Shown: positions 785-51,957 of the stretch, one piece after another | Position numbering within the stretch: position 1 is the stretch's first letter | How the letters are laid out: every line of letters begins with the position of its first letter | From: Rhodohalobacter sp. 614A | GTDB taxonomy: Bacteria; Bacteroidota; Rhodothermia; Balneolales; Balneolaceae | DNA: 64,000 nucleotides | Reading direction: 5' to 3' | Assembly (NCBI RefSeq): GCF_021462415.1 | Contig: NZ_JAKEDS010000001.1 | Span: forward strand, 778,273-842,272 | Translations under genes and position numbers: made by a program | Notes under the pieces: model-generated | The model's database searches: none | The model's input: only the letters and a program-made list of their open reading frames with translations | What the model was told of the DNA's origin: nothing

Positions 785-979
785 ATGGATACAGTGGCAG
801 ACAATTGCCGGTTTAAAAAGCAGTGTATTGCAGATTTATGAATCAGAAGTTGCAATAGTTGGGTTTGTTGGTTAAAATTTTTGCTCAATTTGTTTCGCAG
901 ATGTAGCCACATTTTTTCTACATCACTATTGCGCACGAATCAATCAAATCACGACATTCACTATTCAGTTTTTTATCTA

Positions 980-1543
980 TTGTGTGAGAAAGGCCATATC
1001 ACCCAACTTTTAGTTGAAGCCAGAAATGGCAAAAAATCTGCTCTGGATTCTCTATATCCATATGTCTACAAGCAGCTGAAACAACTTGCCCGCCACCATT
1101 TGGCCAGCGAACGCCACGGACACACCCTTCAGAAAACAGCCCTGGTTCATGAACTTTACATGAAATTGATTGATCAATCAGAAGTTGAATGGCAAAACCG
1201 GGCTCACTTTTATTCGATTGCTTCTCGGTGTATGCAACAAATTCTTGTGGACTATGCGCGCAAGAAAAAAGCAGACAAGAGAGGAGGGAAGCATGAGGGA
1301 ATAACCCTTGATGAAGACCGGTTGAACGTAGACCAGCATGCTGAAGAAATTATTGAACTAAACGATTTGATCGAAAAGCTGACGCAGCTTGATTCCAGGA
1401 AAAGCCAGGTGGTAATTATGAGGTTTTTCGGGGGAATGACAATTCCTGAAATTTCTGAAGTCCTTGATGTAACGACACGAACGGTTGACAGAGACTGGGC
1501 AAAAGCAAAAATGTGGCTTTATAACGAGCTAAAAGCTTCTTAA
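980..1543 (+). CDS. ECF-type RNA polymerase sigma factor (PF07638/TIGR02999 type), cassette 1
   Basis: Cytoplasmic promoter-specificity factor. Region 2 is seen in the segment around NRAHFYSIASRCMQQILVDY followed by ARKKKADKRGG, the signature of this sigma subfamily; region 4 is the C-terminal VVIMRFFGGMTIPEISEVL helix-turn-helix. The frame is open back to a TTG at 881, but a TTG at 980 gives 187 residues, matching the paralogues at 10094 (188) and 24040 (186) residue for residue at the N-terminus, so 980 is preferred; neither has a clear Shine-Dalgarno sequence. The TPR kinase gene starts 88 bases downstream. No anti-sigma factor is nearby, which fits the known idea that such sigmas are controlled by the linked kinase; that control is inference here. 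Confidence 0.9.
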   Translation: MCEKGHITQLLVEARNGKKSALDSLYPYVYKQLKQLARHHLASERHGHTLQKTALVHELYMKLIDQSEVEWQNRAHFYSIASRCMQQILVDYARKKKADKRGGKHEGITLDEDRLNVDQHAEEIIELNDLIEKLTQLDSRKSQVVIMRFFGGMTIPEISEVLDVTTRTVDRDWAKAKMWLYNELKAS

Positions 1544-1631
1544 AATAGGTTCGCAACTTTAAAATCTGTTTTGGACTGAATACACATCGCTTGCAGAATA
1601 AGTGTAAGTGGTAACTCATGGGGTACCAACA

Positions 1632-4178
1632 ATGAACCAAAAAGACTGGAAAAAACTGAGTCAGATCTTTGACAAAGTTTTGACGCTGCCACAAGAACGC
1701 CGAACGACTTATATAAAAAATATCTGTGGGAATGATCCGGAACTCGAGAAGAAAGTCCGGGATATGTTGGATAAAATGGAGGAGTCGGACCAGTATTTTG
1801 ACCAGCAATTTAAGCAAAACCAGGCTGCACTTGATGAGTTAAACTCTCTTCTAAAAAATGAAGATGAGAGTGCAGACTTCTTTAAAGGAAAAACCATTGG
1901 CCGCTGGGTAGTTACCGAACTGATTGGCCGGGGTGGAATGGGCAGTGTTTATAAAGCACAGCGAACGGATGAATCCGGACTTCAGCAGGTTGGCGCACTC
2001 AAAATTGTGCATCACAGCCTGATTACCCCTTCCCATATCGAACGGTTCAAATTAGAGCAGCAAATTCTTTCCGGCCTGCACCATCCCAATATATCAGGCT
2101 TTATCGATAGTGGAATTACGGAGGATGAAATTCCTTACATGGTAATGGAGTATGTGGAGGGAGAATCCATTCTTACGTATTGTAACCAGCAAAACCTTTC
2201 GGTTGAGAAACGGCTTAAACTATTTAAGACGATCTGCCGGGCCATTCAATATGCACACAAATCACTGATTGTTCATCGTGATTTGAAGCCGGAAAACATA
2301 TTGATCACAAAAGACGGACATGTTAAAATATTGGATTTTGGCATCGCCAAACTGCTTGATCCAAATCTGTATGAGGGTTCTGCCATTGAAACCACACCCG
2401 GCATGCGGCTGCTAAGTTTGGAATATGCTTCACCTGAGCAGATATCCGGAAAACCCATCAATATTTCCACCGATATTTACTCCCTTGGAGTTTTGCTGTA
2501 TAAACTATTAACCGACCTGCATCCATTTGATACAGATAATCTTTCCTATCGCGAAGTTGAGAAAATTGTGCTCGACCAAGATGCTCCACTCCCAAGTACA
2601 CGTCTTGCAAACCTTTCTGATTCAACCCTATTCAATGAAATAGCACAAAACAGAAAAGTGGAGCCGGGCGATCTGGTCAAAAAACTTAAGGGGGATCTGG
2701 ATGCGATTGTTAACAAAGCTCTTCGAAAAGACCCCGAACGCCGGTTCGATTCTGTTGAGTCATTTCTCCATGATATTGACCGCTATCAAAATGGGCTGCC
2801 CATTTATGCCCGCCCGGATACGGTTGGATACCGCACACGTAAATTTATCCACCGCCACTTGTGGGCTGTAACGGCGGCCGCACTGGTTATTCTCACATTA
2901 ACTGTGGGACTCGCCACCACGCTCTGGCAGGCTGAGCAGGCAAGAAAAAATGCAGAACAAGCTCGTCAGAATGAAGAGCAGGCAGAACAGGTTTCCGCTT
3001 TTTTATTGGAACTCTTTGAGGGATCTGACCCAACCAGTGCCAATGACGGATCTACAACGGTTCGTGAGCTGCTCGATCAAGGCTATGAAAAATTTCGCAC
3101 GGAACTCACAGATCAGCCGGTTGTTCGTGCAAGAATGTTAGGAACTATCGGCAAAGTTTACAGCAATCTTGGACTTTTTGATGAGGCTCTCCCTGCTCTC
3201 GAAGAGTCTATTGCGGGCTTTCAAAACGTTGACGCTCAATCGACTGACTACGCCCTGGCACTTTTATTATTTGCCAATCTTCAATACCGGTTAGGGGAGT
3301 GGGATAAAGCTGAAACGGCTGCAAGACATGCGTATGAAATAAATCTCAACCATTATGAAGAAGACGCACCGGAAATGGCCAGTATTATGAATACACTGGC
3401 ACTTGTACTGGAAGAAAAAGGTGAAATGGATGAAGCATACAAATTATATCGCCGGATTATAGAAATTCGCAGAAATCAGCCCGAACAGAATTCTGACCTT
3501 GCAATTAACCTCAACAATCTTGCGATTCTTCTCCAGCAAGACGGCGAACTGGATGAAGCGGATGAACTATTCCGGGAAGCCATTGGTGTAGTTGAGGAAG
3601 AGTGGGGAGAAGAACATCCCTATATGGCTTATGTGCTGAATGGATATGCAGGTGTACATGAAGATCGCAAAGATTTTGAACAAGCCAATGAAACCATGCA
3701 ACGGGCACTGGCAATAGGCCGGGCTGTTTTTCCGGAAGAGCATCCCTTTATTGCCGTTGCCATTCATAATATCGGGCGGATTTACGAAAACATGGAAAAC
3801 TTTGAAGAGGCTCTCAATTATTACAATGAGGGATTGTCCCTGCGCCGCCAAACATTGCCGGAAACACATGTGGATCTGGCCTCTTCCCTGGATGCCTTGG
3901 GATTGGTTTACATAAAAACAGATAAACCCGCCGAGGCCGAACCACTTTTGCGTGAAGCATTGGAGATAAGACGCCAGAGTATGGAAGAAGATGACTGGAG
4001 AATTGCACAGGTCGAATCTCATCTCGGACGGAGTCTCCTGCTTCAACAGAAATTTGAAGAAGCTGAGGTTTTATTGACCAAAAGTCGCGCCGTACTTGAG
4101 GAAACCCTCGGTCCGGAAAACATTCATACTCTTCGGGCTATTGACGACTTGAATGAGCTTGCCGCTCTCCGGGATTAA
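1632..4178 (+). CDS. Membrane Ser/Thr protein kinase with C-terminal TPR domain, cassette 1
   Basis: The 848-residue product has, in order, an N-terminal helical segment common to this kinase type (1-60), a Hanks-type kinase domain (about 91-385), one membrane helix (about 411-431), an EQA-rich linker and many TPR repeats (about 450-848). Kinase motifs are complete: glycine loop GRGGMGSVY near 99-107, lysine in ALK (K124), HRDLKPEN (D217) and DFG (235-237). The ATG at 1632 is chosen over a GTG at 1608 because it aligns exactly with the start of the 848-residue paralogue at 10783. The kinase domain should be cytoplasmic and the TPR region extracytoplasmic. It is probably cotranscribed with the upstream sigma gene, which is its likely partner or substrate (inference). 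Confidence 0.93.
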   Translation: MNQKDWKKLSQIFDKVLTLPQERRTTYIKNICGNDPELEKKVRDMLDKMEESDQYFDQQFKQNQAALDELNSLLKNEDESADFFKGKTIGRWVVTELIGRGGMGSVYKAQRTDESGLQQVGALKIVHHSLITPSHIERFKLEQQILSGLHHPNISGFIDSGITEDEIPYMVMEYVEGESILTYCNQQNLSVEKRLKLFKTICRAIQYAHKSLIVHRDLKPENILITKDGHVKILDFGIAKLLDPNLYEGSAIETTPGMRLLSLEYASPEQISGKPINISTDIYSLGVLLYKLLTDLHPFDTDNLSYREVEKIVLDQDAPLPSTRLANLSDSTLFNEIAQNRKVEPGDLVKKLKGDLDAIVNKALRKDPERRFDSVESFLHDIDRYQNGLPIYARPDTVGYRTRKFIHRHLWAVTAAALVILTLTVGLATTLWQAEQARKNAEQARQNEEQAEQVSAFLLELFEGSDPTSANDGSTTVRELLDQGYEKFRTELTDQPVVRARMLGTIGKVYSNLGLFDEALPALEESIAGFQNVDAQSTDYALALLLFANLQYRLGEWDKAETAARHAYEINLNHYEEDAPEMASIMNTLALVLEEKGEMDEAYKLYRRIIEIRRNQPEQNSDLAINLNNLAILLQQDGELDEADELFREAIGVVEEEWGEEHPYMAYVLNGYAGVHEDRKDFEQANETMQRALAIGRAVFPEEHPFIAVAIHNIGRIYENMENFEEALNYYNEGLSLRRQTLPETHVDLASSLDALGLVYIKTDKPAEAEPLLREALEIRRQSMEEDDWRIAQVESHLGRSLLLQQKFEEAEVLLTKSRAVLEETLGPENIHTLRAIDDLNELAALRD

Positions 4179-4237: not shown

Positions 4238-4351
4238 TCAAGAATCCTCTCCCGGATCGGGAGGCAACAGTTGCTCGGTATTGCGGCTGATGGATAGTGT
4301 TGTGATGGCTGGTGTTTGCCAGGGTTCAAGGGTGTTATTGTTTGGTTTCAT
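4238..4351 (-). CDS. Small ORF (37 codons), RiPP-leader-like peptide, copy A
   Basis: ATG at 4351, stop TGA at 4238. The peptide contains PWQTPAITTLSI and ends NTEQLLPPDPGEDS. A second ORF at 15558-15665 has the same layout, PWQSPEITTLSI and NTEQLLPPDAGAQS; 24 residues are identical and 13 of these use different codons in the two copies, which is strong evidence that protein sequence is under selection. The W-x2-P-x-I-x2-L...T segment resembles the Y-x2-P-x-L...T leader motif of lasso peptide precursors, which RRE/B1 proteins bind. It lies 211 bases downstream of the T9SS gene at 4563-9815 on the same strand. No Shine-Dalgarno sequence is obvious. A RiPP precursor is one reading; a free small protein is another. 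Confidence 0.62.
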   Translation of the reverse strand: MKPNNNTLEPWQTPAITTLSISRNTEQLLPPDPGEDS

Positions 4352-4562: not shown

Positions 4563-7500
4563 TTATTTCACCACCGTTAATTTCTTCGTCATAATCTGGT
4601 TGCCCGCCGCAAGCCTGTACAGGTAAACCCCGCTGGAAAGATTGCTCGCATCAAAGTTAACGCTGTGCCGGCCCGCCGCCACTTGCTCGTTGACCAATGT
4701 TGCGACGTTTCGGCCCAGCATATCATACACCTCAAGCCGAACCTCACTGCTTACAGGCAACTGGTAACTAATCACTGTTGTCGGGTTGAATGGGTTGGGG
4801 TAGTTTTGCTGAAGAGTGAATTGATCCGGCAATGAACCCAATTCAGCTTCTCCATCTATGCCCGCCTTCGCTACCAGTAATTCAAATCGTGGTTCAGATT
4901 GCGAATTTTTTGCAACGAGCTGAGAAGTGCCCGTAAAAGGCGTCTCTTTTATTGATGTTGCTTTGGCTGTTTGGGTAGCTTCAATCTTAAAACTATAACT
5001 GGCACCATCCCGAAGTTCAGTCACTTCATGGGTCACATTATCCCGGAGGAAGTAGCTGCCGTTAAAGACATGGCTTTCCGGCAGGGTCCAGTTCAGCGTA
5101 AACCGACCGGCTTCGGTGGTTTGAAGATCTACCGGAATACTCACTTTTTCTTCCTGGGTGAAGATATTTTCCGGAAGACTCTGGAACGCATACGCTTTTT
5201 TAGTCTGATCCAGGGAATACAGAGACAGCCAATGATCCGCAAGCCCGGCAGCGCTTAGTTTTATCCCGTCCTGTGCATCCAGCCCGGCGGTTCCGTTTTC
5301 GGAGAAATGAATGTTCGCTGTGTTCGAAAATACCTGGTCTTCGCTGTTCACAGTCAAAGAGATTAAAAATTTATCTTCCTCTGCCGGGTTTTCTTTTGCG
5401 AGTCTGGTCGAATAAGCAGATTCAGGAACAGAGAGCTCAGGGTTGTTATCAGTGGTTCGAATCCAGAATGCCTGAAACGGTTCAATGGACGAGTAAATAC
5501 CCTGACAGCTCTGATTCTGATACCCTCCATTTCCGCCATTTTCAGACGGATTCCAAACATCAAAGGTGCTGGCAATATTTGTCGCTTCATTCACCATCTC
5601 ACAAAAATCAATAGAAACCGGGTGTGGATTGGCGATCAAAAAATGGCTGTCACCTTGGGGTCCCTGGGCGTCATCATAAAATAAACCACTATATGCGAAT
5701 TCATTTTCAAGCGATTCCCAGTTTTCGCCGGAAGTTAACGTTGCAGAGTAATTTTCGTCATTGTTTGTGTATACATACACAATAAAACCTGATCCACGGC
5801 TGATTTCATCCGTCAAATCATCAAGCTCTTCCCATACATAATTTCCCTGATCCAGTAGCTGTACATTGGCAACATCTGCGCTGGGATTGTCTGACCCGGG
5901 AATTCCCTTGAGCCATAACGGATCAAGAAAATCTCCGAACTCATCCCCGATAGACGGATTGGTTAAAAAGCGCCAGCCTTCATCCTCATCAATAAACAGT
6001 TGTGCCCGGCCGAGATCAATCGTCATGGTATATGTATCCGTGCTTTCAGTTCCACCCGCATCTTTTACTGAGAATTCAAATTCACTGTATTCTGCAAATC
6101 CTCCCGAAGCATTGGTACTGTAAGTAAGATCTCCGTCATCAATATCTGCCACAGAAATTTCATCGTTTGCAGATACAGGATTGCCATCCAGCTCTAGGTT
6201 TCCGCTGGGAAGTGTTTTTATAACAACGGAGAAGGTGTTATCTGACTGATCGAAATCGGCCGGAGTAAAGGTGTAGCCGTTCAAATCACTTGCAAGAATG
6301 CGGCCATCAGAAGCCACTGCCTCGCTACAACCGGAAGCAAGGTCATCGCCGCTAAATGTCCAGTTATGGTCATCAATCAGTGCCTGACGCTCTGCCTGCG
6401 CCATACAATATTTAACCCCGGCAGCACCTATTTCTACATCATCCTGAACGCTTTGCGCTTCCCATCCAACAATTATAGCATCATAGTTGGCTGAGGAAAG
6501 CCCTGAAAGAAAAAACATATTGCTCATGGTGGTCACCCCGGAAATGTCCCAGCCTCCAAGATCCTGATTAAAGCTATGCGCATTCATAAACATTCCCGAC
6601 ATACTCGATAAGCTTGAAACATCCCAATTGCTGATATCCTGATTGAAGGCTTCGGCGCTGGCAAATAAGTTATTCACGTTTGTTACATTACTTATATCCC
6701 AGGCTTCATATTCATCAGGAGTACCGCTATTCGCTGTTTTGGTTGAAATATCCTGATTGAAGGCTTCGGCACTGCTGAACATGTTCATCATGGTTTCCAC
6801 ACTTGAAATATCCCAACTGCTGATATCTCCGTTGAAAACTGTGGCACCGCTAAACATAGATGCCATATTTTCTACTAATGAAACATCCCACTCATTCAGG
6901 TCCTGGTTAAAGGAACTGGCATGAAAGAACATGGCTCCCATTTTTGTAATCGTACTTACATCCCAGCTACTTATATCACCATTAAATGAACTTGCATATC
7001 CAAACAGGTAAGACATATCACTTACACCTGACAAATCAGGCTCATCTGTTGCATTATAGGTAAGATTTGAAGCACCATAAAATGCCTTATTCATCGAAGT
7101 CCACTCAATCTCTCCCCACTGTTCAATGGTCATAATCTTCTCTTTGTCGCCCTCATTGTTAAAGTATATTCGGGGAAAATCACCGGTAATTTCTACGGTG
7201 TACGTTCCGGCGCTTGCATAGGTGTGAGTGGCATCTCCTGTTTGGCCGGCATCACTATTTCCATCTCCCCAGTCTACATCGTAATTGTAGCCGCTTCCTT
7301 CCGTTGGAATGGTAATTTGCAGATCGCCAGAGGTGACTTCCCACGTGGTGATAAAACCGGGTGGGGCATCGCAACCGGTGCCAGCAAAGGTATCCCCGTC
7401 AAAAGTCCAGCTGTGATCATCTATAAGTGCCTGGCGGGCGGTCTCTCCGATACAATATTCCAGCCCTTCGGCACCCAGCTCAATTCCATTTTGTACAGCC

Positions 7501-9815
7501 AGGCTTTCCCAGCCAATCAACAAAGAATCGTAAAATGCTGTTGAAAGCCCGGAATTATCCAGCATATTTTCCATATCTGTGACGGCCGAAACATCCCAAC
7601 CGCCAATATCCTGGTTGAATACGGAGGCATCCCTAAACATAAAAGCCATGTCTATAACTTCCGCCACACTCCAGTTACCTATTTCCTGGTTAAATGCTTC
7701 CGCATGGGAAAACATGCTGCGCATTGATTCGACTCCGGACACATCCCAGTTACTTATATCCTGGTTGAAAGATGTTGCGTATTGAAACATACTATCCATC
7801 TTCGTAACCTTTTCTACGTTCCAGGCGGTGTACTCGTCTGCTGTTCCGGAATTCACGACTTTTTCTGAAATATCCTGATTAAAAGAAGTAGCTCCGTGAA
7901 ACATATCATTCATGAGAGTTACGGATGACACATCCCAGTTACCAATATCCTGGTTAAAAGTCGATGCACCATCAAACATATAGTTCATTTTTTCTACAGA
8001 GGAAACATCCCAACCGCCAATATCCTGGTTAAACGCAGTAGCACTGGCAAACATAAAAGCCATGTTTTTAACATTCTTCACCTCCCAGCCGCCGATATCC
8101 TGATTAAATGAACTTGCTTGTGTGAACATATTTTCCATCGTTGTAATGTTTTCCACATTCCAGCCGCCGATATCCCCGTTAAATGATGATGCACCAAAAA
8201 ACATTAGAGTAAGGTTAGTCACATTTGACAAATCAGGCTCATCTGTTGCATTATAGGTGAGATTGCTCGCCCCGAAAAACGCTCCTTTCATAGAACTCCA
8301 CTCAACATCTCCCCACTGTTCAATCGTCATAATCTTTTCTTTGTCACCCGTGTTGTTAAAGTAGATACGGGGAAAATCACCGGAAATTTCTACGGTGTAC
8401 GTTCCGGCACTTGCATAGGTGTGAGTGGCATCTCCTGTTTGTCCGGCATTACTATTGCCATCTCCCCAGTCTACATCGTAATTGTAGCCGCTGCCTGTGG
8501 TGGGAATAGTAATATCCAAATCGCCGGAAGTAACTTCCCATGTGGTGATAAACGGATCAAATGGCTCTACATAATCACCCTGAAATTCGTAGGCTCCCAT
8601 ATCTACAATCTGCGTTGAGCCTAAAAATACACGCCCATTCCGGTTTAAATCTTCGGGATCGGCATTTCCGCCCGGATAGTTAGAAAAATCGGTGGATGGG
8701 TCCCCGGTATTAATGGCCGGTGAGCTTTCCGTAAGCTGCAGATCGCCAGCGGATGTGGGTGCATCATCTGGATCAACGGCCGTAACAAAAAGCGGATCTG
8801 TATCAATATTATTGCCGCCATCGGTCCCATAACTGGAATTCCAGGAATCGCTGCCGCCGGAGCCGTCTACCAGGCTGTAAGAAAAAGTGGGATCAGACGT
8901 GCCGTAATTAAAAACAAAAGATGAACCATCGTTATCCCATAGAATGGCATTTTTAAATGTGGGAGAACTGTTCCTGTTATAGATAGCCGCTCCCCCGGCA
9001 TTGGATGCATTCCCGGTAATGGTTACATTCTCAAAATTCAAATCTGTATCCTCAATATTAATAGCCGCACCCGTATGAGCGGTATTGCCTGAAAATAAAG
9101 CATTGATGACTGATCCGGGTGTGCTCATAATTTGCATACCTCCCCCGCCGGTATTTGCCTCATTCCCCGAAAAGGATACATTCGTGAACTGCATGGAATC
9201 GTTTGAATCCAGATAGACCCCACCGCCATATCCCGCCGAATTGTCTATAAAGGAAACATTTGTTAAAAGAATGGTACCATCTTCGGATTGAAAACCGCCG
9301 CCGGTCAGACCTGCACTATTCTCCAAAAAAATAACGTCGGAAAGAGTCACATCTCCACCGCTTCTGTTCCGCACTCCGCCACCATAGTATGGTGTATTCC
9401 CGTGCTGAATTGTAACCCCCTCGATTTCTACATCCGTTGCAGGGTTCTCTATGGCAATCACCCGGTCTGAGGCTGAACCGGCATCCGCATGTGCCTGGAT
9501 GATCGTGCTTTCAGATCCCACCCCCTGGATGGTAATATCTTTATCAACTACGAAGCTCTCTGTAAATGTCCCCACAGAAAGCCTTATGATATCTCCCGAG
9601 TCCGATTCATCGATTGCATGAGTGATGGTGATACATGGCGAAGTTGAACTGGTACAATCATTCCCTGTATCGGTTCCTCCGGTAGCTACAAATCGGGTCG
9701 TTTGTGCGGTTGCAGCAGAGGCAAACAACAGTACCATTAGCAGCATCACAACTTTGATCAGAATTGCGTCTACCTTCCTTTCGGTTATCTTAAATTCGTA
9801 ATGATTTGGCTTCAT
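4563..9815 (-). CDS. Large T9SS-exported protein: beta-helix, two PKD-BspA units, C-terminal sorting domain
   Basis: A 1750-residue product. Order: signal peptide (about 1-38, ending ATAQ); right-handed beta-helix region (about 45-420) with a MGAYEF end; PKD domain (about 425-490); BspA/DUF285 leucine-rich-type repeats with SFNQDIGGWDVS units (about 495-800); second PKD (about 822-890) and second BspA block (about 895-1150); a cadherin-like domain (about 1170-1275); a beta-sandwich module shared with the 15789-19022 product; Por secretion tail with QNYPNPFNPTTVISYQLP (about 1658-1750). Secretion through T9SS and attachment to or release from the outer membrane are expected from family knowledge; the ligand is unknown. 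It is divergent from the sigma/kinase cassette at 10094-13329, which may control it. Confidence 0.92.
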   Translation of the reverse strand: MKPNHYEFKITERKVDAILIKVVMLLMVLLFASAATAQTTRFVATGGTDTGNDCTSSTSPCITITHAIDESDSGDIIRLSVGTFTESFVVDKDITIQGVGSESTIIQAHADAGSASDRVIAIENPATDVEIEGVTIQHGNTPYYGGGVRNRSGGDVTLSDVIFLENSAGLTGGGFQSEDGTILLTNVSFIDNSAGYGGGVYLDSNDSMQFTNVSFSGNEANTGGGGMQIMSTPGSVINALFSGNTAHTGAAINIEDTDLNFENVTITGNASNAGGAAIYNRNSSPTFKNAILWDNDGSSFVFNYGTSDPTFSYSLVDGSGGSDSWNSSYGTDGGNNIDTDPLFVTAVDPDDAPTSAGDLQLTESSPAINTGDPSTDFSNYPGGNADPEDLNRNGRVFLGSTQIVDMGAYEFQGDYVEPFDPFITTWEVTSGDLDITIPTTGSGYNYDVDWGDGNSNAGQTGDATHTYASAGTYTVEISGDFPRIYFNNTGDKEKIMTIEQWGDVEWSSMKGAFFGASNLTYNATDEPDLSNVTNLTLMFFGASSFNGDIGGWNVENITTMENMFTQASSFNQDIGGWEVKNVKNMAFMFASATAFNQDIGGWDVSSVEKMNYMFDGASTFNQDIGNWDVSSVTLMNDMFHGATSFNQDISEKVVNSGTADEYTAWNVEKVTKMDSMFQYATSFNQDISNWDVSGVESMRSMFSHAEAFNQEIGNWSVAEVIDMAFMFRDASVFNQDIGGWDVSAVTDMENMLDNSGLSTAFYDSLLIGWESLAVQNGIELGAEGLEYCIGETARQALIDDHSWTFDGDTFAGTGCDAPPGFITTWEVTSGDLQITIPTEGSGYNYDVDWGDGNSDAGQTGDATHTYASAGTYTVEITGDFPRIYFNNEGDKEKIMTIEQWGEIEWTSMNKAFYGASNLTYNATDEPDLSGVSDMSYLFGYASSFNGDISSWDVSTITKMGAMFFHASSFNQDLNEWDVSLVENMASMFSGATVFNGDISSWDISSVETMMNMFSSAEAFNQDISTKTANSGTPDEYEAWDISNVTNVNNLFASAEAFNQDISNWDVSSLSSMSGMFMNAHSFNQDLGGWDISGVTTMSNMFFLSGLSSANYDAIIVGWEAQSVQDDVEIGAAGVKYCMAQAERQALIDDHNWTFSGDDLASGCSEAVASDGRILASDLNGYTFTPADFDQSDNTFSVVIKTLPSGNLELDGNPVSANDEISVADIDDGDLTYSTNASGGFAEYSEFEFSVKDAGGTESTDTYTMTIDLGRAQLFIDEDEGWRFLTNPSIGDEFGDFLDPLWLKGIPGSDNPSADVANVQLLDQGNYVWEELDDLTDEISRGSGFIVYVYTNNDENYSATLTSGENWESLENEFAYSGLFYDDAQGPQGDSHFLIANPHPVSIDFCEMVNEATNIASTFDVWNPSENGGNGGYQNQSCQGIYSSIEPFQAFWIRTTDNNPELSVPESAYSTRLAKENPAEEDKFLISLTVNSEDQVFSNTANIHFSENGTAGLDAQDGIKLSAAGLADHWLSLYSLDQTKKAYAFQSLPENIFTQEEKVSIPVDLQTTEAGRFTLNWTLPESHVFNGSYFLRDNVTHEVTELRDGASYSFKIEATQTAKATSIKETPFTGTSQLVAKNSQSEPRFELLVAKAGIDGEAELGSLPDQFTLQQNYPNPFNPTTVISYQLPVSSEVRLEVYDMLGRNVATLVNEQVAAGRHSVNFDASNLSSGVYLYRLAAGNQIMTKKLTVVK

Positions 9816-10093
9816 CGGCTTGAAATATTTTGGTTCTGGCAGGTGGATAGAGCGCTTGGCAACTCTAAGAACTGCATACTTTTTTTAAGGCTGCCTCAAC
9901 ATTGATATATTTTCTGTGCAAACCCCTTCACTCATAAATACGTGAAGCATCGTCTGATTACGACATGACTTTTTTTTGATTTTTTTGTTGATGGATTTCT
10001 AACTGCTTTTCTCAGAGCGCTTTAGTACTTTTTAGAAAAGAATCAGAAACTTCATCTACTTGAGGCCCGCATTCTCACAGAATCTTGGCAGGA
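9816..10093. other. Divergent control region between T9SS gene and ECF sigma gene 2
   Basis: This 278-base AT-rich spacer must hold promoters for both the minus-strand T9SS gene and the plus-strand sigma gene. It contains long T runs (around 9969-9987) and a short inverted repeat CTTCAC...GTGAAG (about 9928-9949) that could be a hairpin or operator. I could not place a convincing promoter, and no small ORF with support was seen. Confidence 0.4.
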
Positions 10094-10660
10094 ATGGAAA
10101 ACAGAAATAAAATTACCCGTCTTTTAATCGACGTTCGCACAGGGGATAAAGAAGCTTACGACAGCCTGTTTTCCATCGTATATGAAAAATTGAAGGAGAT
10201 TGCAGGATTCCATTTACGAGAGAAAGGAAGAAATAAAAACCTGACTCTTTCAAATACTGCTTTGGTTCACGAAGCTTATATGAAATTGATGGATTACACC
10301 GATGGCGAATGGGAAAACCGGTCTCACTTTTATGCGATTGCCTCTCGATGTATGCGACATATTCTTATTGATTACTGCCGGAAAAAAACAGCTGAAAAAC
10401 GTGGCGGAGAACAGCAGGAAATTACCCTTCTGGAAGAGCATATTAACCTCGAAAAACATGCTGAAAAACTGATAGACCTGAACCGGCTGATTGATGAAAT
10501 GGCTGAATTTGATGAACGGAAAAGCAAAATCGTAGAGATGCGTTTTTTTGGAGGGATGACCATTCAAGAGATTTCTGAAGTACTGAATGTTTCCAGCCGA
10601 ACGGTAGACCGCGACTGGCTGAAAGCACGTATGTGGCTCTTAAAGGAAATGACTCCATAA
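10094..10660 (+). CDS. ECF-type RNA polymerase sigma factor (PF07638/TIGR02999 type), cassette 2
   Basis: The 188-residue product closely parallels the sigma factors at 980 and 24040. Region 2 is seen in NRSHFYAIASRCMRHILIDY and the following CRKKTAEKRGG; region 4 in KIVEMRFFGGMTIQEISEVL. The ATG at 10094, preceded closely by CAGGA, is preferred over an in-frame TTG at 10085. The kinase of the same cassette starts 122 bases downstream. Divergent transcription from the large T9SS gene suggests that gene as a target (inference). No anti-sigma gene is present. Confidence 0.91.
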   Translation: MENRNKITRLLIDVRTGDKEAYDSLFSIVYEKLKEIAGFHLREKGRNKNLTLSNTALVHEAYMKLMDYTDGEWENRSHFYAIASRCMRHILIDYCRKKTAEKRGGEQQEITLLEEHINLEKHAEKLIDLNRLIDEMAEFDERKSKIVEMRFFGGMTIQEISEVLNVSSRTVDRDWLKARMWLLKEMTP

Positions 10661-10782
10661 ATCATTTCATAAAAAGCTTTCTGCCTTTTCTTATTAAAAA
10701 ATCAAAATTTTTTTCCGGTTCATCTTAAAACTACACATTTTAGGAGACCAAAAAATTTTAACAATCTTTCCGACTATTTTTC

Positions 10783-13360: not shown

Positions 13361-14620
13361 TTACTCAGCCAGCGGAGACCAATGCGGGAAAAATGAGGCA
13401 CTGTTATCATCCTTTCCGGTAATATTTGTCAGTCCCGAACCATCTGTTCCCACGACAAAAACATCGAATAAATCTGCAGAGCTATCCCTGTTTGAGTCGA
13501 ATGCAATATGGCTCCCATCGGGTGACCATGACGGAAACCGGTGTGTAATTTGTTCATCACCCAGGTCTGTAAGACACTCAATATCGGAGCCATCCGCTTC
13601 TGCTACACAAATTTCCCAGGAAACTTCGGTTTCGAAATTGCTGCGGAATGCAATTTTATTGCCATCGGGCGACCATGAGGGATTCGCAAAAAACGTACTT
13701 TCACCCTGAAGAAGCACACTCCGTCCGGTTCCATCCACATTTATGGTACTGATGTAATGCGCTTTACCAGCTTCGATCGTATGAAATGCAATTTTATTGC
13801 CATCTGGTGACCAATCCGGCCACCAGTCTCCTGTGGAAGAATTGGTTACGTTGGTTTTGCCAGAGCCATCGGCATTCATGATAAAGATATCTCCTTCCCC
13901 ACCCGGCACATATGAATGATAGGCTATTTGAGAACCATCGGGCGACCATGAAGGATATTCATAAAACCGTTGATTATCGCTAGTTAAATTTTGAAGATTT
14001 TGTCCATCAGCATCCACCATCCAAATTTGAGCGGTTGTAAATTCTCCTCCAGCTGAGGCAAATAAAATGTTCAGTCCATCCGGCGAAACAGCTACTTTCC
14101 AGTACTCTCCAATTCCAAAATCGGTCAATTGGGTTCTGTTATTTCCATCCGGGTCCGATTTGTAAAGGTTTGTGACTCCATTTTCATGTCGGGCAAATAC
14201 AATCTTATTCCTCAGAATACCGATGCAATTCATGACAAAAGATAGATTTGCTGTTTCACTTCCGGTTATTTCAACAGATTGTGGATTTTCACTGGTTACG
14301 GCACAGTGATCGGCGATGTTGGTTATTTCAACACTATATGTGCCAGGCTCCAGGTTGCTAAATGTAGCCGAATCGTTGGCATCCACATTTTTATTCCCTT
14401 CACCCTGAAAAGAAACCAAAACGCCAGGAGGATTTTCATCTCCACCGGTTGTGGTTATCTCTACGTTCACTTGCCCTAAATCCGGATCTACATTTGTAGA
14501 ACTGTCACCACATGCAATGTTGATCATCCATAGCACGATTAAAAGTGCTATCATTTTCGACCATCGATATGATATTTGTTTTGAGGAAATGGATGGGAGT
14601 TGTAACTGATTTTGCTTCAT
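13361..14620 (-). CDS. TolB-like PD40 beta-propeller lipoprotein
   Basis: 419 residues. A lipoprotein signal is visible: hydrophobic MIALLIVLWMINIAC with the lipobox cysteine near residue 37. Residues about 48-140 form a beta domain with a GTYSVEI motif, like a PEGA/carboxypeptidase-regulatory fold. The rest holds five to six WD40-like PD40 repeats with the SWSPDGNKIAF pattern, spaced about 45 residues, as in TolB and DPP6-type propellers. It lies convergent with kinase 2 and has no TolB partner genes, so it is not TolB itself. Role: probably an outer- or inner-membrane-anchored propeller of unknown binding function. The start could also be an internal methionine at residue 23. Confidence 0.85.
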   Translation of the reverse strand: MKQNQLQLPSISSKQISYRWSKMIALLIVLWMINIACGDSSTNVDPDLGQVNVEITTTGGDENPPGVLVSFQGEGNKNVDANDSATFSNLEPGTYSVEITNIADHCAVTSENPQSVEITGSETANLSFVMNCIGILRNKIVFARHENGVTNLYKSDPDGNNRTQLTDFGIGEYWKVAVSPDGLNILFASAGGEFTTAQIWMVDADGQNLQNLTSDNQRFYEYPSWSPDGSQIAYHSYVPGGEGDIFIMNADGSGKTNVTNSSTGDWWPDWSPDGNKIAFHTIEAGKAHYISTINVDGTGRSVLLQGESTFFANPSWSPDGNKIAFRSNFETEVSWEICVAEADGSDIECLTDLGDEQITHRFPSWSPDGSHIAFDSNRDSSADLFDVFVVGTDGSGLTNITGKDDNSASFFPHWSPLAE

Positions 14621-14870: not shown

Positions 14871-15320
14871 TTATCTTATCACTTTTACTTCCAGTTTTGC
14901 ATAGTGTTGTTCCGCCTCTGCCAATTGATTCATAAAAAATGCCACCGCTTCATTCTTGGTGGATTCATTCGCATCTAAATACACCCGAATGGACCCAACT
15001 CCAATGAAAAAAGCTAATTGTCCATTTACTTTATCCAGATCGGCTTCAGTTCTCACACGTGTACTTCCTCTGGAATCATCCTCGCGAATGTTTGTTAATT
15101 CGTATGCCGTAGCTCCTGACTGAGCCTCAAAATATGCCCGAAAACCGCCGTTTGAAATGTTATAGGTTCCGTCTGAATTCTCTATGACTGGAACATACTT
15201 TTCGAACTCAACATAAAAGACATCTTCGTTTTCATTTTCATCCGAGCCGGAATCACTCGGACATCCATAAAAAGAGACTAAAATGAATAGAGAGAAAACT
15301 GCTTTGAACGCTTTTTTCAT
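14871..15320 (-). CDS. Small hypothetical lipoprotein
   Basis: 149 residues, unrecognised. The N-terminus is a lipoprotein signal: MKKAFKAVFSLFILVSFYGC, with cysteine at residue 20, followed by a Ser/Asp/Glu-rich linker (SDSGSDENENED) typical of surface lipoproteins. The remaining 110 residues are mixed alpha/beta without a known motif and end in a basic KLEVKVIR. It is followed by a good terminator and is transcribed alone or with the PD40 lipoprotein further downstream. Function unknown. Confidence 0.8.
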   Translation of the reverse strand: MKKAFKAVFSLFILVSFYGCPSDSGSDENENEDVFYVEFEKYVPVIENSDGTYNISNGGFRAYFEAQSGATAYELTNIREDDSRGSTRVRTEADLDKVNGQLAFFIGVGSIRVYLDANESTKNEAVAFFMNQLAEAEQHYAKLEVKVIR

Positions 15321-15557: not shown

Positions 15558-15665
15558 TTAGGATTGCGCACCCGCATCAGGCGGTAAGAGCTGTTCGGTA
15601 TTTTTGATGGATAAGGTGGTAATTTCCGGTGATTGCCAGGGGATGTGGGTTTTGTTGGTTTTCAT
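15558..15665 (-). CDS. Small ORF (35 codons), RiPP-leader-like peptide, copy B
   Basis: ATG at 15665, stop TAA at 15558. It is the paralogue of the 4238-4351 ORF: PWQSPEITTLSI in the middle and NTEQLLPPDAGAQS at the end, against PWQTPAITTLSI and NTEQLLPPDPGEDS. Most codon differences at identical residues are at third positions. The position is also the same: 123 bases downstream of a T9SS-exported protein gene on the same strand. The middle segment resembles an RRE-binding RiPP leader, and the QLLPPD-x-G end would be the core. No RBS is obvious, and no maturation enzyme is adjacent. Confidence 0.62.
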   Translation of the reverse strand: MKTNKTHIPWQSPEITTLSIKNTEQLLPPDAGAQS

Positions 15666-15788: not shown

Positions 15789-18700
15789 TTACTTCACCAC
15801 TGTTAATTTCTTCGTCATAACCTGGCTGCCTGCGGCAAGCCTGTACAGGTAAATCCCGCTGGATAAATGACTCGCATCAAAATTGACGCTGTGCCGGCCT
15901 GCCGCAACCTGTTCGTTCACAAGTGTGGCAATCTGCCTGCCAATCATATCATACACTTCCAGCCTCACCTGACTTCTTACCGGTAACTGGTAACTGATCA
16001 CCGTCGTCGGGTTGAACGGATTTGGGTAGTTTTGCCCCAGCTCAAAACTTTCGGGAACCGCTCCGAGCTCGGTAAAGCCGTCGATGCCGGATTGAGTGAT
16101 CAGCAATTCGAAACGGGGACCCGATCCGTCTGACGGCTGCAAGGACTTCGGATGATTGTTCTCAGTCTCAGCTTCCTTCGTTTGAATGGCATCTTTCTCC
16201 GTTATCTCAAACCTAAAACTCGATCCTTCTTCGAGTTCGATAACATCCCCGGTTTGGTTGTCCCGCAGGAAGTAGCTGACACTAAAGATGTGAGATTCCG
16301 GCAAGCTCCAGTTCAACGTAAATTCACCGGACTCGGTCGTTTGAACATCCAGTGGAATCCGGAGTTTTTCGTCCATATCCAACGGAAGATTTTGCAAGGC
16401 GTAGGAATGATTGTCTTCGTCCAGTGAGTAAAACGCCAGCCACCGGGAGGTGAGACCGTCTGGACGTTTCTTTAACCCATCTGTTGGATCTAATGCTTTT
16501 GTTCCGGCTTCAGAAAATACGATTCGAGTGTGATTGGTGAAGAGTTGATCGGCACCACTCACGCTAAGGGTCACCACGAACCCGTCAGACAGGATACTTT
16601 GCTTGAAATATCCATCGGTGGCTTCGTTTTGATAGGTTTCTTGAACAAGGTTCATCTCCGGGTTCTCTCCGGTGGTTCGTACCCAAAACGCCTGGAAAGG
16701 AGCAATCAGAACCTCGCCGATGGAGCAGCTTACGTTTACGTAATCGCCGTTTCCCGAATTTGCTGACGGATCCCACAAATCGATATTATTGGCAATGTCG
16801 GCAGAGGATTCATCAAACACCTCACAAAAATCCAACGCAACCGGATGTGGGTTGGCCAGCAGGTAGGTGTTATCGGGGTTGTTGGTTTCCTCGTAGCCCA
16901 GCCCGTCAAAGGAGAAACTTCCATCCAATGGCAGCCAGTTATCTCCGGAGGCCAAGATTTTGGGGAACCCGTCGTCGGAGCCGTTGTTGTCATCATCGCC
17001 ATACACGTAGACAATGAACGGCTGTCCTGCATCCGTAGAGTTATTCAGATCAGACGGCTCTTTCCACTGGTAGCCGGTCTGATCCAGATTGAACACGTTG
17101 GCAAAGGTGGCCCCGGGAGAATCCGAACCGGGCATCCCTTTGGTCCACAGGGGACCCAGAAAGTCATCGTAACTGTCTCCATCCGAAGGATTACCCACAA
17201 ACCGCCAGCCTTCCCCGCCAGTGAGTTTAACTGTGGTAGCGGCAAGATCGAAAGTCATCGTGTAGGATTCTTCACTTTCCAGCTCATTTTCATCAATAAG
17301 TGAAAAATCAAAAGAAGTAAATGCATATCCATACTGACCGCCCGGCGGAGTCCAGGTCAATAGATTCTTTTCAATATCCACCATTGAAATTTCCTCATTT
17401 TCTGCGACCGGATTTCCATCCAACCGGAGGATTCCTTCATCCGGAAGAGAAATAATTTTGATAGAGTACTCTTCATCCACAAAATCAATTCCGGAAAAAA
17501 TGTACTCTTCACTATTGCTGACCAACAACCGTTGATCGGATGTTTCAGGCCGGGCCACCGTAGTAAATGCAAAAACCTCACTCCATTCCCCGGTTTCTTC
17601 GTTATCCACACTTCGAACGCGCCAATAGTATAGAGTGTCCGCCTCCAAATCTTTGAAGCTAAGATTATATTCTGAGTCTGTTATCAAAGTTATTTTTAAA
17701 AAGAAATCAGAAAAATCACCGCTGTTGGAAATTTCAAGCTCGAAGCTGTCTACATCATCGGATACACTCCAGTCAAACGTAGGATTCAGAAGAACGCCAG
17801 TGGCTGCATTAACCGGTATTTCAAGAGTGGGGACCGGTATCTCGGTTTCGCCTGGAATATCCTGTGTATTGTTGCGTAATACGGGAAACCAAACATCCTC
17901 TTCAATTTGCCAGACAGTAGAAAAATCGAACCCGCTAAACGAGGCTTGCTTTCGCATTTCTTCGTCTGTACGGCCGGTTGTTCCACTTGATGAGCCATTT
18001 CCAACGGCATTCTCTCGGCCGGAAGTATCAGTATTCCAATAGCTATTTGAAACAGAAACATCTTCAATACTTCCAATCAAACCACCTGCATAACTGCCGA
18101 TTACGTTTATAAATCCCGTAGCATAGCTTCTGTGGATTCCTCCAAATCCACTTAAACCTGTAATGCTTCCCACCAATCCGCCTACATTCGTTAGTCCTGA
18201 CACCTCCCCGGTAGCATAGCTGTCGTTAACCGAACCAAAGGTTGCAACAGACCCAACCAGGCCACCTACACTAACACCTCCCTCAACATCCCCTGTGGCA
18301 TAACTTTCACTCACAGAACTGCTGAAACCTTGAAATCTCCCTACCAGGCCGCCCACAGCACTGCCACTGCCTGATGCAATTACCTCAACGGATGCAAAAC
18401 TTTTTGTAATGGGAGCAGACACATTTTGCCCCACCAGCCCGCCAACATCCGAAGAAGCCGTAACAGACCCGGAGGCTGAGCTATTTGTAACACTTCCACC
18501 GTCGATATTTCCAATGAGTCCGCCAACATCCGAGTTTCCGGCTATTTGCAATTCAAGCAGATGAATGTTTGCAATAACAGCAGAATTCGTTGCACCAAAA
18601 AGACCAATATAACTTGTGCCTGGCCGGTTGATGTTCAAGCCTGTGATACTGAATTCCTGGCCATCAAACGCTCCCGTAAATGGTATACTCTCTGTACCAA

Positions 18701-19022
18701 TCGGTTCCCAACCTGCATCGCTATTTGAGGAGGAACTTGCATATGTATCATACCCGGGAGAATCCTTATCCAGATTGTTCATCAGAACATAATTGCCTTC
18801 CAGGTTATTGCGGACATTATATAAATCTGCCCATGTAGTAATCTGCGTTTGTGCATGAAGAATTCCCGGAGTCATCCAAAAAAGAAGTATTACCAGCACT
18901 CCGGGAAAGATCCGGGGCTTGTGTAGGTTTTTTTTGATGTTACCTCTTAAGCGGATTGGTTTCGCTTGTTTGAAATCTGTTAAAAAAAATATGGACGAAG
19001 AGTAGAATGGTTTGTTTGGCAT
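15789..19022 (-). CDS. T9SS-exported GLUG-repeat protein with C-terminal sorting domain
   Basis: 1077 residues. A long basic N-terminus precedes a signal helix (about 38-58, ending LHAQ). Residues about 60-340 carry GLUG-type repeats (GGLVG units alternating with SYATG). A fibronectin III-like domain follows (about 395-490, YYWRVRSVD), then a cadherin-like domain and the same beta-sandwich module as in the 4563-9815 product (GEGWRF..NPS onward, about 605-980), and the Por secretion tail QNYPNPFNPTTVISYQLP. The T9SS tail is nearly identical to the other protein's, whereas the N-terminal passenger is unrelated. The gene is divergent from the hybrid two-component regulator region at 19250-23903. 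Confidence 0.91.
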   Translation of the reverse strand: MPNKPFYSSSIFFLTDFKQAKPIRLRGNIKKNLHKPRIFPGVLVILLFWMTPGILHAQTQITTWADLYNVRNNLEGNYVLMNNLDKDSPGYDTYASSSSNSDAGWEPIGTESIPFTGAFDGQEFSITGLNINRPGTSYIGLFGATNSAVIANIHLLELQIAGNSDVGGLIGNIDGGSVTNSSASGSVTASSDVGGLVGQNVSAPITKSFASVEVIASGSGSAVGGLVGRFQGFSSSVSESYATGDVEGGVSVGGLVGSVATFGSVNDSYATGEVSGLTNVGGLVGSITGLSGFGGIHRSYATGFINVIGSYAGGLIGSIEDVSVSNSYWNTDTSGRENAVGNGSSSGTTGRTDEEMRKQASFSGFDFSTVWQIEEDVWFPVLRNNTQDIPGETEIPVPTLEIPVNAATGVLLNPTFDWSVSDDVDSFELEISNSGDFSDFFLKITLITDSEYNLSFKDLEADTLYYWRVRSVDNEETGEWSEVFAFTTVARPETSDQRLLVSNSEEYIFSGIDFVDEEYSIKIISLPDEGILRLDGNPVAENEEISMVDIEKNLLTWTPPGGQYGYAFTSFDFSLIDENELESEESYTMTFDLAATTVKLTGGEGWRFVGNPSDGDSYDDFLGPLWTKGMPGSDSPGATFANVFNLDQTGYQWKEPSDLNNSTDAGQPFIVYVYGDDDNNGSDDGFPKILASGDNWLPLDGSFSFDGLGYEETNNPDNTYLLANPHPVALDFCEVFDESSADIANNIDLWDPSANSGNGDYVNVSCSIGEVLIAPFQAFWVRTTGENPEMNLVQETYQNEATDGYFKQSILSDGFVVTLSVSGADQLFTNHTRIVFSEAGTKALDPTDGLKKRPDGLTSRWLAFYSLDEDNHSYALQNLPLDMDEKLRIPLDVQTTESGEFTLNWSLPESHIFSVSYFLRDNQTGDVIELEEGSSFRFEITEKDAIQTKEAETENNHPKSLQPSDGSGPRFELLITQSGIDGFTELGAVPESFELGQNYPNPFNPTTVISYQLPVRSQVRLEVYDMIGRQIATLVNEQVAAGRHSVNFDASHLSSGIYLYRLAAGSQVMTKKLTVVK

Positions 19023-24039: not shown

Positions 24040-24600
24040 ATGGCAGAGAACGTTACCGAAATCCTTATAAAGGCAAGCGACGGCTCCGAAGACGCCTATA
24101 ACCGGCTTTTTTTTGTTGTATATGACCAGTTAAAAAATATTGCCGAACAACAGATGAATTATGAAAACCCCGACCACACTTTTTCCCGGACGGATTTAGT
24201 GCACGAGGTTTTTATCAAAATGGTGGATAAAAACCGGATCGACTGGAAAAACAGAACGCATTTCTATGGAGTTGCGGCCATTTGCATGAAGCAGCTTCTT
24301 GTGGATTACGCCCGAAAAAAACTGGCTCAAAAAAGGGGAGGCGACTATTCCCGCCAAACCTATATCGATGAATTGATACCGGCCGCTTCCGAAGCAAAAA
24401 AAATTATCACTCTTGACAGCTCCTTAAAAAAATTGGAAGAATTTGATCAACGAATGGCACAGGTGGTGGATTATCGTTTCTTTGGCGGACTCACCATCAA
24501 GGAAACCGCCGAACTGTTAAACGTTTCTGCAAATACGGTAAAGCGTGATTGGGCCAAAGCCCGCGGTTTTTTGTTAAAAGAGCTGGAACAAGAACTCTGA
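24040..24600 (+). CDS. ECF-type RNA polymerase sigma factor (PF07638/TIGR02999 type), cassette 3
   Basis: 186 residues. Region 2 is seen in NRTHFYGVAAICMKQLLVDY and the following ARKKLAQKRGG; region 4 in VVDYRFFGGLTIKETAELL. It is more diverged from sigma 1 and sigma 2 than they are from each other. The ATG at 24040 is the only reasonable start. The kinase of the cassette begins 77 bases downstream. A PKD relic lies just upstream on the other strand in place of a full surface-protein partner. Confidence 0.91.
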   Translation: MAENVTEILIKASDGSEDAYNRLFFVVYDQLKNIAEQQMNYENPDHTFSRTDLVHEVFIKMVDKNRIDWKNRTHFYGVAAICMKQLLVDYARKKLAQKRGGDYSRQTYIDELIPAASEAKKIITLDSSLKKLEEFDQRMAQVVDYRFFGGLTIKETAELLNVSANTVKRDWAKARGFLLKELEQEL

Positions 24601-24677
24601 TGAACCAACACGGTTTTTTCTTACGCATTTAAAAACGAAACTCAACTTTAAAAAGGGTTCATTCTAAACCATCTGGT

Positions 24678-51222: not shown

Positions 51223-51669
51223 ATGAATAAACCCGCTTCAACTCTTTCCATTTTCTGGAGCAAACCGCTGAGCCAAAAACTTCTTCTGATTCGGGTTTTT
51301 CTGTTGTTATGCGTAGCGGCTGTGGCAAATTATTTGCTGCCATTTAAGATTTACGCCCGATTTCTGGGTGAAATCAATTCGGAATCAGCCAAAAATCCAC
51401 AAGGTGTTGACTGGGATTATGTAGACCAAATTGCCCAATCCGTAAAAAATGTAAGCCTTGCCGGTCCGTTTGACTTTAAATGCCTTGTGCAGGCCACCGC
51501 CGGGAAAATCCTGATCGCCAGAAAAGAAATTGAAAGCACCCTCTATTTTGGGGTGAAAAGGGATGAATCCCAACAGATGAAAGCGCATGCCTGGTTGCGG
51601 GTGGGATCCAAAATTGTGCTTGGCGGTGAGGTAGCTGATGAGTATAATATAGTTTCAACATTTTGCTGA
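51223..51669 (+). CDS. Lasso peptide biosynthesis B2-type transglutaminase-like protease
   Basis: 148 residues. N-terminal hydrophobic segment (LLLIRVFLLLCVAAVANYLLP) followed by the PF13471 fold with the catalytic Cys in FDFKCLVQATAG and the His in MKAHAWLRVG; a third acidic residue is likely in the GGEVADEY segment. In lasso-peptide pathways this B2 enzyme cuts the leader from the precursor, helped by the B1/RRE protein. The gene for an RRE protein follows after 12 bases. Unlike true lasso clusters, no asparagine-synthetase-like cyclase or precursor lies beside it; the order B2-B1 is reversed from most. Confidence 0.85.
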   Translation: MNKPASTLSIFWSKPLSQKLLLIRVFLLLCVAAVANYLLPFKIYARFLGEINSESAKNPQGVDWDYVDQIAQSVKNVSLAGPFDFKCLVQATAGKILIARKEIESTLYFGVKRDESQQMKAHAWLRVGSKIVLGGEVADEYNIVSTFC

Positions 51670-51681
51670 GCTGAATTTTTT

Positions 51682-51957
51682 ATGACACGGGATACAAAAA
51701 TTGTTCGAACCAACCGGGCCCTGGTCTCATCCATCAAAGATGAGCTGGTCATGTTTGATGTAAATGCCGGCCAGTATTATGGCCTGAATAACGTGGCCAC
51801 CGCCGTCTGGAACAACCTCGAAACCGAAAAAACGGTAGACGAACTTTGCCAGTCTCTCACACAAGAGTTTGATATTTCCCTGGACGAGTGCCGTGAAGAA
51901 ATGCTTGCCTTCTTGCCTGAATTGGAAGAGAAAGGATTGATTGAGGTTGTGGGGTAG
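51682..51957 (+). CDS. PqqD-family RiPP recognition element (lasso B1-like)
   Basis: 91 residues, the usual size. PqqD/RRE fold: residues about 10-35 form the beta-strands that hold a leader peptide (SIKDELVMFDVNAGQYYGLN), followed by ATAVWNNLET and the helical TVDELCQSLTQEFDISLDEC segment and an acidic helical end LPELEEKGLIEV. RRE proteins bind RiPP leader peptides at a Y/W-x2-P-type motif and deliver them to maturation enzymes. Last gene of the CHRD-SDR-B2-RRE operon; after it lies a repeat-rich non-coding block. Confidence 0.88.
   Translation: MTRDTKIVRTNRALVSSIKDELVMFDVNAGQYYGLNNVATAVWNNLETEKTVDELCQSLTQEFDISLDECREEMLAFLPELEEKGLIEVVG

Follow-up and report, generated by a model that had tools for sequence, protein, structure and literature searches.

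What kind of product, if any, is encoded by the 37-codon open reading frame lying behind a type IX secretion system (T9SS) surface-protein gene of Rhodohalobacter sp. 614A, and which enzymes could mature it? The question was raised by a preliminary description of the window, i.e., the whole stretch of 64,000 nucleotides that was analysed (contig NZ_JAKEDS010000001.1, positions 778,273 to 842,272), in which the frame at 4238-4351, given without a strand, was proposed to represent a candidate new RiPP family. The frame is genuine and is read from the minus strand. A plus-strand gene at the same positions was rejected because the plus-strand frame contains a stop. The peptide genes and their predicted parts are as follows:

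4351-4238, minus strand: peptide gene A, 37 aa, reading MKPNNNTLEPWQTPAITTLSISRNTEQLLPPDPGEDS and then a stop
4351-4274, minus strand: predicted leader of peptide A, residues 1-26, with W(-16)xxP(-13)xI(-11) and T(-2)-E(-1)
4273-4241, minus strand: predicted core of peptide A, QLLPPDPGEDS, the cut site being placed from T(-2) of lasso leaders
15665-15558, minus strand: peptide gene B, 35 aa, reading MKTNKTHIPWQSPEITTLSIKNTEQLLPPDAGAQS and then a stop
15593-15561, within gene B: predicted core of peptide B, QLLPPDAGAQS

The homologue of A that had been announced at 15558-15665, with 24 identical residues, is borne out by this comparison. Leaving aside the start Met, 24 of the 34 aligned codons specify identical residues and 14 of these 24 (not 13, as first counted) differ synonymously, a pattern of selection at the protein level illustrated by a pS of 0.69, a pN of 0.19 and a dN/dS of 0.11. 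Purifying selection was also observed across 16 family pairs, hand-picked and interdependent, with pooled pS and pN of 0.443 and 0.118, respectively. Where the dN/dS was defined and above zero (13 pairs), it ranged from 0.06 to 0.40; of the remaining pairs, one was saturated and two were free of amino-acid change. At the thresholds used, no Pfam or NCBIfam family was matched by peptides A and B. Among 33 family members, weak matches were obtained to the paeninodin family NF033524 (four members at E<=0.01, best E 0.0016) and to PqqA (one member), two precursor families whose handling involves PqqD-type proteins.

The genome of strain 614A (4.69 Mb) contains five copies of the peptide, namely A, B, C5:45411, C2:1158241 and C5:36599, the last of which shows a frame change in its core. 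Homologues also exist elsewhere: using a profile built from 16 members, matches at E<=0.01 were found in 14 of 98 related genomes, 11 of these among the 28 Rhodohalobacter genomes, with up to 10 matches per genome; the match in G048 (19 bits) is probably due to chance. When 394 genomes from across the phylum were screened (E<=1e-4), five gave matches, i.e., four Rhodohalobacter genomes and G308, which lies outside the genus and in which two peptide matches adjoin frames judged by eye to be cyclase-like and kinase-like. The family is found mainly in Rhodohalobacter (Balneolota).

The anatomy of the peptide was then deduced from 43 matches above 24 bits, 40 of which have a readable W-x2-P. All 40 carry T-x-Q at a distance of 13 (14 members), 14 (25 members) or 15 residues (one member) after the W. 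With T set as -2, following lasso leaders, the W falls at -15 to -17. For comparison, the accessible parts of the published accounts place the corresponding residue at W-15 in PbaA and Y-16 in LppA (PMC13381572) and at Y-17 in BsfA (PMC10368454). The position after W-x2-P-x is aliphatic, mostly I, L or V, with a Thr in one of 33 aligned members (L148). Hence, the motif [Y/W]xxPx[LVIFA] appears in the register of lasso leaders and of those of the Linear Polyphosphorylated Peptides (LPP; Popov et al. 2026, PMC13381572), as would be expected of an RRE-dependent RiPP precursor, and the suggestion that the leader is of an RRE-bound type is supported by both motif and spacing. Beyond the predicted cut, the Gln immediately after T-x is invariant; a short stretch rich in proline comes next, and the peptide closes with a C-terminal Ser. 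Setting aside the frame-changed copy, the predicted cores run from 9 to 17 residues, with 11 as the commonest length (21/40), which is in line with the short C-terminal core anticipated earlier. The terminal Ser is present in 39 of 40 members, the exception ending in Thr; as the Ser end of the frame-changed copy is due to chance, the figure is otherwise 38/39. Core Gln, Pro-Pro and terminal Ser are conserved on a par with the leader motif.

A matching pair of RRE and B2 genes, missed by the preliminary description, is present at 51223-51957 of the same window, and a candidate kinase, likewise missed, lies outside it:

51223..51669, plus strand: B2-type leader peptidase, 148 aa; NF033537 84.0 bits (cut-off 33), PF13471 69.2 bits
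51682..51957, plus strand: discrete RRE / PqqD-family (B1) protein, 91 aa; PF05402 69.4 bits
C1:750082-750909, 27 kb left of the window: HprK-like kinase with the motif H...G..G.GKS...DD

The B2 protein is the one match above cut-off obtained with PF13471 in this genome, and its Cys87 and His122 are invariant across 12 aligned homologues. The PqqD protein reached 71.4 bits against NF033536, below the cut-off of 80, and 41.1 bits in a gap-free alignment with PbaB1 (chain 9x90_B). Its pocket was mapped by hand onto the leader contacts listed in the accessible part of PMC13381572: residues Y39, L41, L65, E75, F83, L87 and L92 are identical, I44, I48, Y69 and V71 are conservatively changed, Q79 is replaced by Glu, and G42 by Asn as in LppB. 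The genome is therefore predicted to encode a discrete RRE with a conserved leader pocket, as would the host of an RRE-dependent RiPP. The kinase assignment is based on the motif and on homology to a gene of G008 that adjoins PqqD; the protein scored only 25.8 bits against HprK_rel_A (cut-off 200) and gave no PDB sequence match at E<=0.01. In strain 614A, the machinery lies at least 35 kb from the precursor genes and the B2 and PqqD genes are adjacent, as they are in G015. No SpI-like ORF was recognised by eye around this PqqD gene, its neighbour being the B2 gene.

In other genomes, looser relatives of the peptide occur within the machinery loci themselves. One adjoins B2 in G005 and others lie in the machinery loci of G016 and G019; in G046 and G025 a relative is flanked by a PqqD gene on one side and by a T9SS cargo tail on the other, and in G060 it follows a cargo tail by 96 bp, ~3 kb from B2. 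These relatives scored 10.4-19.6 bits on the profile or were found by eye: those of G046, G060 and G025 stand at 10.4 and 14.8 bits and, for G025:C313, at by-eye recognition. The strict T-x-Q is absent from two of them, being T-x-D in G060 and I-x-Q in G025:C313. Besides, two further observations were made around the PqqD genes. On the right-hand side of B2 and PqqD, the window holds a HerA-like ATPase (DUF87; 53692-55911), whose matches to anti-phage HerA models are far below cut-off. L117 5346-6913 (G000:C1:1356345-1357912) contains another, divergent PqqD-like gene. The ORF behind it resembles a nucleotidyltransferase by eye, with no NCBIfam match, and glycosyltransferase-like ORFs come next; this may be a separate peptide system.

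Co-occurrence of peptide and machinery was evaluated in the 28 Rhodohalobacter genomes, 11 with and 17 without the peptide, counting PqqD matches above 58 bits, kinase matches above 160 bits and B2 matches above the Pfam cut-off. PqqD was present in 11/11 peptide genomes vs 3/17 others (Fisher, p=1.7e-5), the HprK-like kinase in 10/11 vs 1/17 (p=8.8e-6) and B2 in 9/11 vs 2/17 (p=3.6e-4); in the 19 genomes at least 90% complete, the respective values were 1.2e-4, 1.1e-4 and 4.5e-3, all of them too optimistic since genomes of one genus are related and not independent. Among the matches left out by these thresholds are a 42-bit PqqD match in G023 and a 27-bit kinase match in G011, both peptide-free genomes, whose inclusion would raise the counts to 4/17 and 2/17. 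The association is not complete: B2 was not found in the peptide genomes G002 and G013, nor the kinase in G017, and PqqD is present with no peptide match in G011, G012 and G016. Outside the genus, G083 and G071 (87-88% complete) have the peptide and no PqqD match.

The genomic position of the peptide genes provides a second association. In the window, both follow a T9SS cargo gene, and further genes continue in the same direction after peptide gene B:

4563..9815, minus strand: T9SS cargo gene A, 1750 aa; DUF285 repeats, PKD and Por_Secre_tail; 211 bp upstream of peptide gene A
15789..19022, minus strand: T9SS cargo gene B, 1077 aa; GLUG, fn3 and Por_Secre_tail; 123 bp upstream of peptide gene B
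14871..15320, minus strand: small lipoprotein-like gene, 149 aa, downstream of peptide gene B; no Pfam match
13361..14620, minus strand: PD40 beta-propeller, lipoprotein-like gene, next after 14871..15320

As both cargo genes carry a Por_Secre_tail, the location downstream of a T9SS protein described earlier is confirmed. Scans for a terminator-like site in the gap of A, and for one on the minus strand in the gap of B, found none, which is weak evidence; promoter and terminator scans were little informative overall. Counterparts of the 14871..15320 gene (translations compared by eye) and of the 13361..14620 gene (judged by eye) hold the same positions in G015 and G005. The position behind Por-tail genes extends to the family: a Por tail lies 32-386 bp upstream on the same strand for 33 of 43 peptide matches, a count that includes orthologous loci, hence not all independent. 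Seven of the other ten have too little upstream sequence, and three show no Por tail upstream. Of these three, the first has just 491 bp to the contig end, the peptide of L131 precedes a cargo gene bearing a Por tail by ~50 bp, and L122:7994, with an aberrant core, is the one clear exception to adjacency. The genome of strain 614A contains the T9SS gene family SprA (PF14349, 332.5 bits) and 32 tail matches (30 above the Pfam cut-off), five of which are followed by the five peptides; behind the other 27, no convincing peptide was found within ~1.2 kb downstream (best 8.1 bits). In a tree of 67 tails, built from only 89 columns, peptide-linked tails tend to cluster, and eight label changes are needed, at least three of them forced by well-supported branches; L050, L114 and L131 were labelled as non-linked in this tree though each has a peptide alongside. 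A single recent duplication of cargo and peptide was considered, but the tree indicates that their pairing arose or disappeared several times.

Three times within 27 kb of the window (881-4178, 10085-13329 and 24040-27206), an ECF sigma factor gene is paired with a Ser/Thr kinase-TPR gene, and the first two of these pairs adjoin the cargo-peptide units. A general tie of the peptide to such ECF/kinase cassettes had been proposed. Among the 44 peptide-bearing loci listed, ECF or Ser/Thr-kinase neighbours above 90 bits occur in the window, L120, L126, L131 and L133; for hybrid two-component neighbours, the loci are the window, L124, L127, L139, L141 and L150. Many of the 44 loci are incomplete, so that absence there is weak evidence. 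A general tie is not supported; the cassette was rejected as a defining partner, and the link is only local.

Judging from these sequence features, the peptide gene probably encodes the precursor of a linear, likely phosphorylated RiPP of the lasso/LPP kind that is matured in trans. For PqqD binding, phosphorylation, cleavage and the role of the peptide, we infer the following course. The PqqD protein (51682-51957) would bind the leader of the dispersed precursors in trans and present them to the kinase (C1:750082-750909), by which the terminal Ser would be phosphorylated. B2 (51223-51669) would cut after T-x, yielding a linear core of ~11 residues, e.g., QLLPPDPGEDS. In related systems, according to the accessible parts of the articles, B1 binds the leader and hands it to B2 (PMC10368454; PMC9266682; PMC5067487; PMC13381572). 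The N-terminal Gln of the freed core could close to pyroglutamate, an idea prompted solely by the conservation of this Gln. The peptide and the surface protein are probably produced jointly, since a T9SS cargo gene stands ahead of the precursor gene in the same orientation. The peptide might act at the cell surface or report surface-protein expression, which is the weakest step of the scheme.

The same lasso-type leader, B1, B2 and kinase would also suit a true lasso peptide, whose ring would be closed between residue 1 and an acidic residue by a cyclase encoded elsewhere. Indeed, lasso-type cyclase frames lie near B2 in G005, G016 and G019, and an acidic residue (D/E) occupies position 7-9 in 27 of 40 cores. 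However, no lasso cyclase was found in the genome of strain 614A with the G019 cyclase as the one query, which a very distant cyclase could escape; the sole match is an AsnB-type amidotransferase with glycan-type neighbours. This protein reached 469.4 bits on TIGR01536 (cut-off 267.1) vs 207.6 on the lasso-cyclase model (cut-off 525), and the G019 protein behaves in reverse (300.9 on the lasso model, also below 525, vs 173.7 on TIGR01536). The B2 and PqqD genes of strain 614A are adjacent where G005 has a cyclase frame between them. Moreover, D/E at position 7-9 is missing from 13 of 40 cores, including three of the four intact copies of strain 614A (one has it), four cores have no D/E at all, and the commonest core of 11 residues would leave 2-4 residues beyond a ring closed at 7-9. 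With no cyclase found and the ring residue not conserved, a lasso peptide in the strict sense was rejected, and a ring closed from afar is very unlikely.

Two further readings draw on features of the machinery loci in other genomes:

L040 6157-8091 and L047 3768-5708: lasso-cyclase-like frames of G005 and G016, with one in-frame TAA each
L109 6331-6387, L110 6943-6999, L112 5975-6034 and L113 5836-5889: leader-only mini-ORFs, ending ...IISLD or ...ILLDQA

The in-frame TAA codons reflect either decay or an assembly error. The mini-ORFs were found between kinase-like and PqqD genes in G002, G008, G013 and G025; none was seen in G004, where the kinase-PqqD order is the same. Those of G002 and G013 differ too little to reveal selection. 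A relic, a decoy or a folding partner of the RRE are candidate readings for them. The peptides could be remnants of a lost lasso system that are in decay, duplicated together with T9SS cargo genes but no longer processed, as the interrupted cyclase frames, the mini-ORFs next to PqqD and the frame-changed copy of strain 614A would suggest; yet the low dN/dS values in 13 pairs, the conserved positions in both leader and core and the co-occurrence with PqqD and kinase make this unlikely. Alternatively, the leader alone would matter, the peptide binding PqqD as a regulator or folding partner with no core released. The leader-only ORFs adjoining PqqD in four genomes point that way, as does LppB, which is insoluble without its precursor peptide according to the accessible part of PMC13381572. 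Conservation of Gln, Pro-Pro and terminal Ser in the core, equal to that of the leader motif, argues against it, and this is the least probable of the readings weighed here.

The preferred reading, a linear RiPP matured in trans, would mean that the machinery operates cyclase-free and at a distance. Since precursors are short and far from the enzymes, it also suggests that cluster-based RiPP mining can miss them. The copy-by-copy link between precursor genes and those for T9SS surface proteins offers a testable place to seek function. More tentatively, and as a conjecture that we would not call probable, each of several T9SS surface proteins may have its own peptide, a shared kinase-RRE-B2 set retained after cyclase loss maturing all of them in trans. 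If so, the peptides would work with the surface protein, through anchoring, sugar or phosphate attachment, or reporting of display, and phosphorylated lasso-type RiPPs would gain a place at the cell surface. In the open-licence PubMed Central literature, nothing was retrieved for 'lasso peptide' combined with 'type IX secretion' or with 'Balneola', and the lasso-peptide/T9SS combination was untreated in the titles and abstract starts among the matches listed.

The known systems are compared here as described in the accessible parts of the cited articles. LPPs are known from Bacillota, where the clusters lie within capsule loci and include the SpI-type peptidase LppS; the leader motif is YxxPxVLxHQxIxFETxxS, the intermediates are linear and, in the case studied, the phosphate is on Ser3 of a 45-residue core (PMC13381572). 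The present family resembles LPPs in its discrete RRE, its HprK-like kinase, a leader of the [Y/W]xxP type whose T stands close to the cut, a predicted maturation that would need no macrolactam cyclase and a predicted linear intermediate, and strain 614A combines such a kinase and RRE with no cyclase found. Unlike LPPs, with their Y leader and LppS, it has a W leader in place of the LPP motif, a B2 peptidase beside the RRE, a predicted phosphosite on the terminal Ser, a core of ~11 residues with Ser at position 3 in 0/40 members, and genes scattered beside T9SS cargo. The WxxP leader, split B1/B2 and HprK-like kinase are shared with phosphorylated lasso peptides of the paeninodin type, in which the C-terminal Ser of PadeA is phosphorylated by PadeK (PMC9266682; PMC5067487), the C-terminal Ser being the predicted kinase target here too. 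In contrast to that type, no lasso cyclase was detected in the genome of strain 614A, core position 1 is Gln, the ring residue is not conserved and no compact cluster is present. The Bsf lasso peptide of Bradymonas sediminis is comparable in its B1-assisted kinase, which BsfB1 accelerates, its B2 cleavage and a similar motif spacing, and differs in its Ile at -2, its phosphate on Ser3 and the presence of a cyclase gene (PMC10368454). The proposal of a new RiPP family is therefore to be kept in part: the peptide is likely a RiPP precursor, not of a wholly new kind, and the predicted features place the family on a branch of the lasso/paeninodin/LPP kind that is linear and apparently lacks the cyclase.
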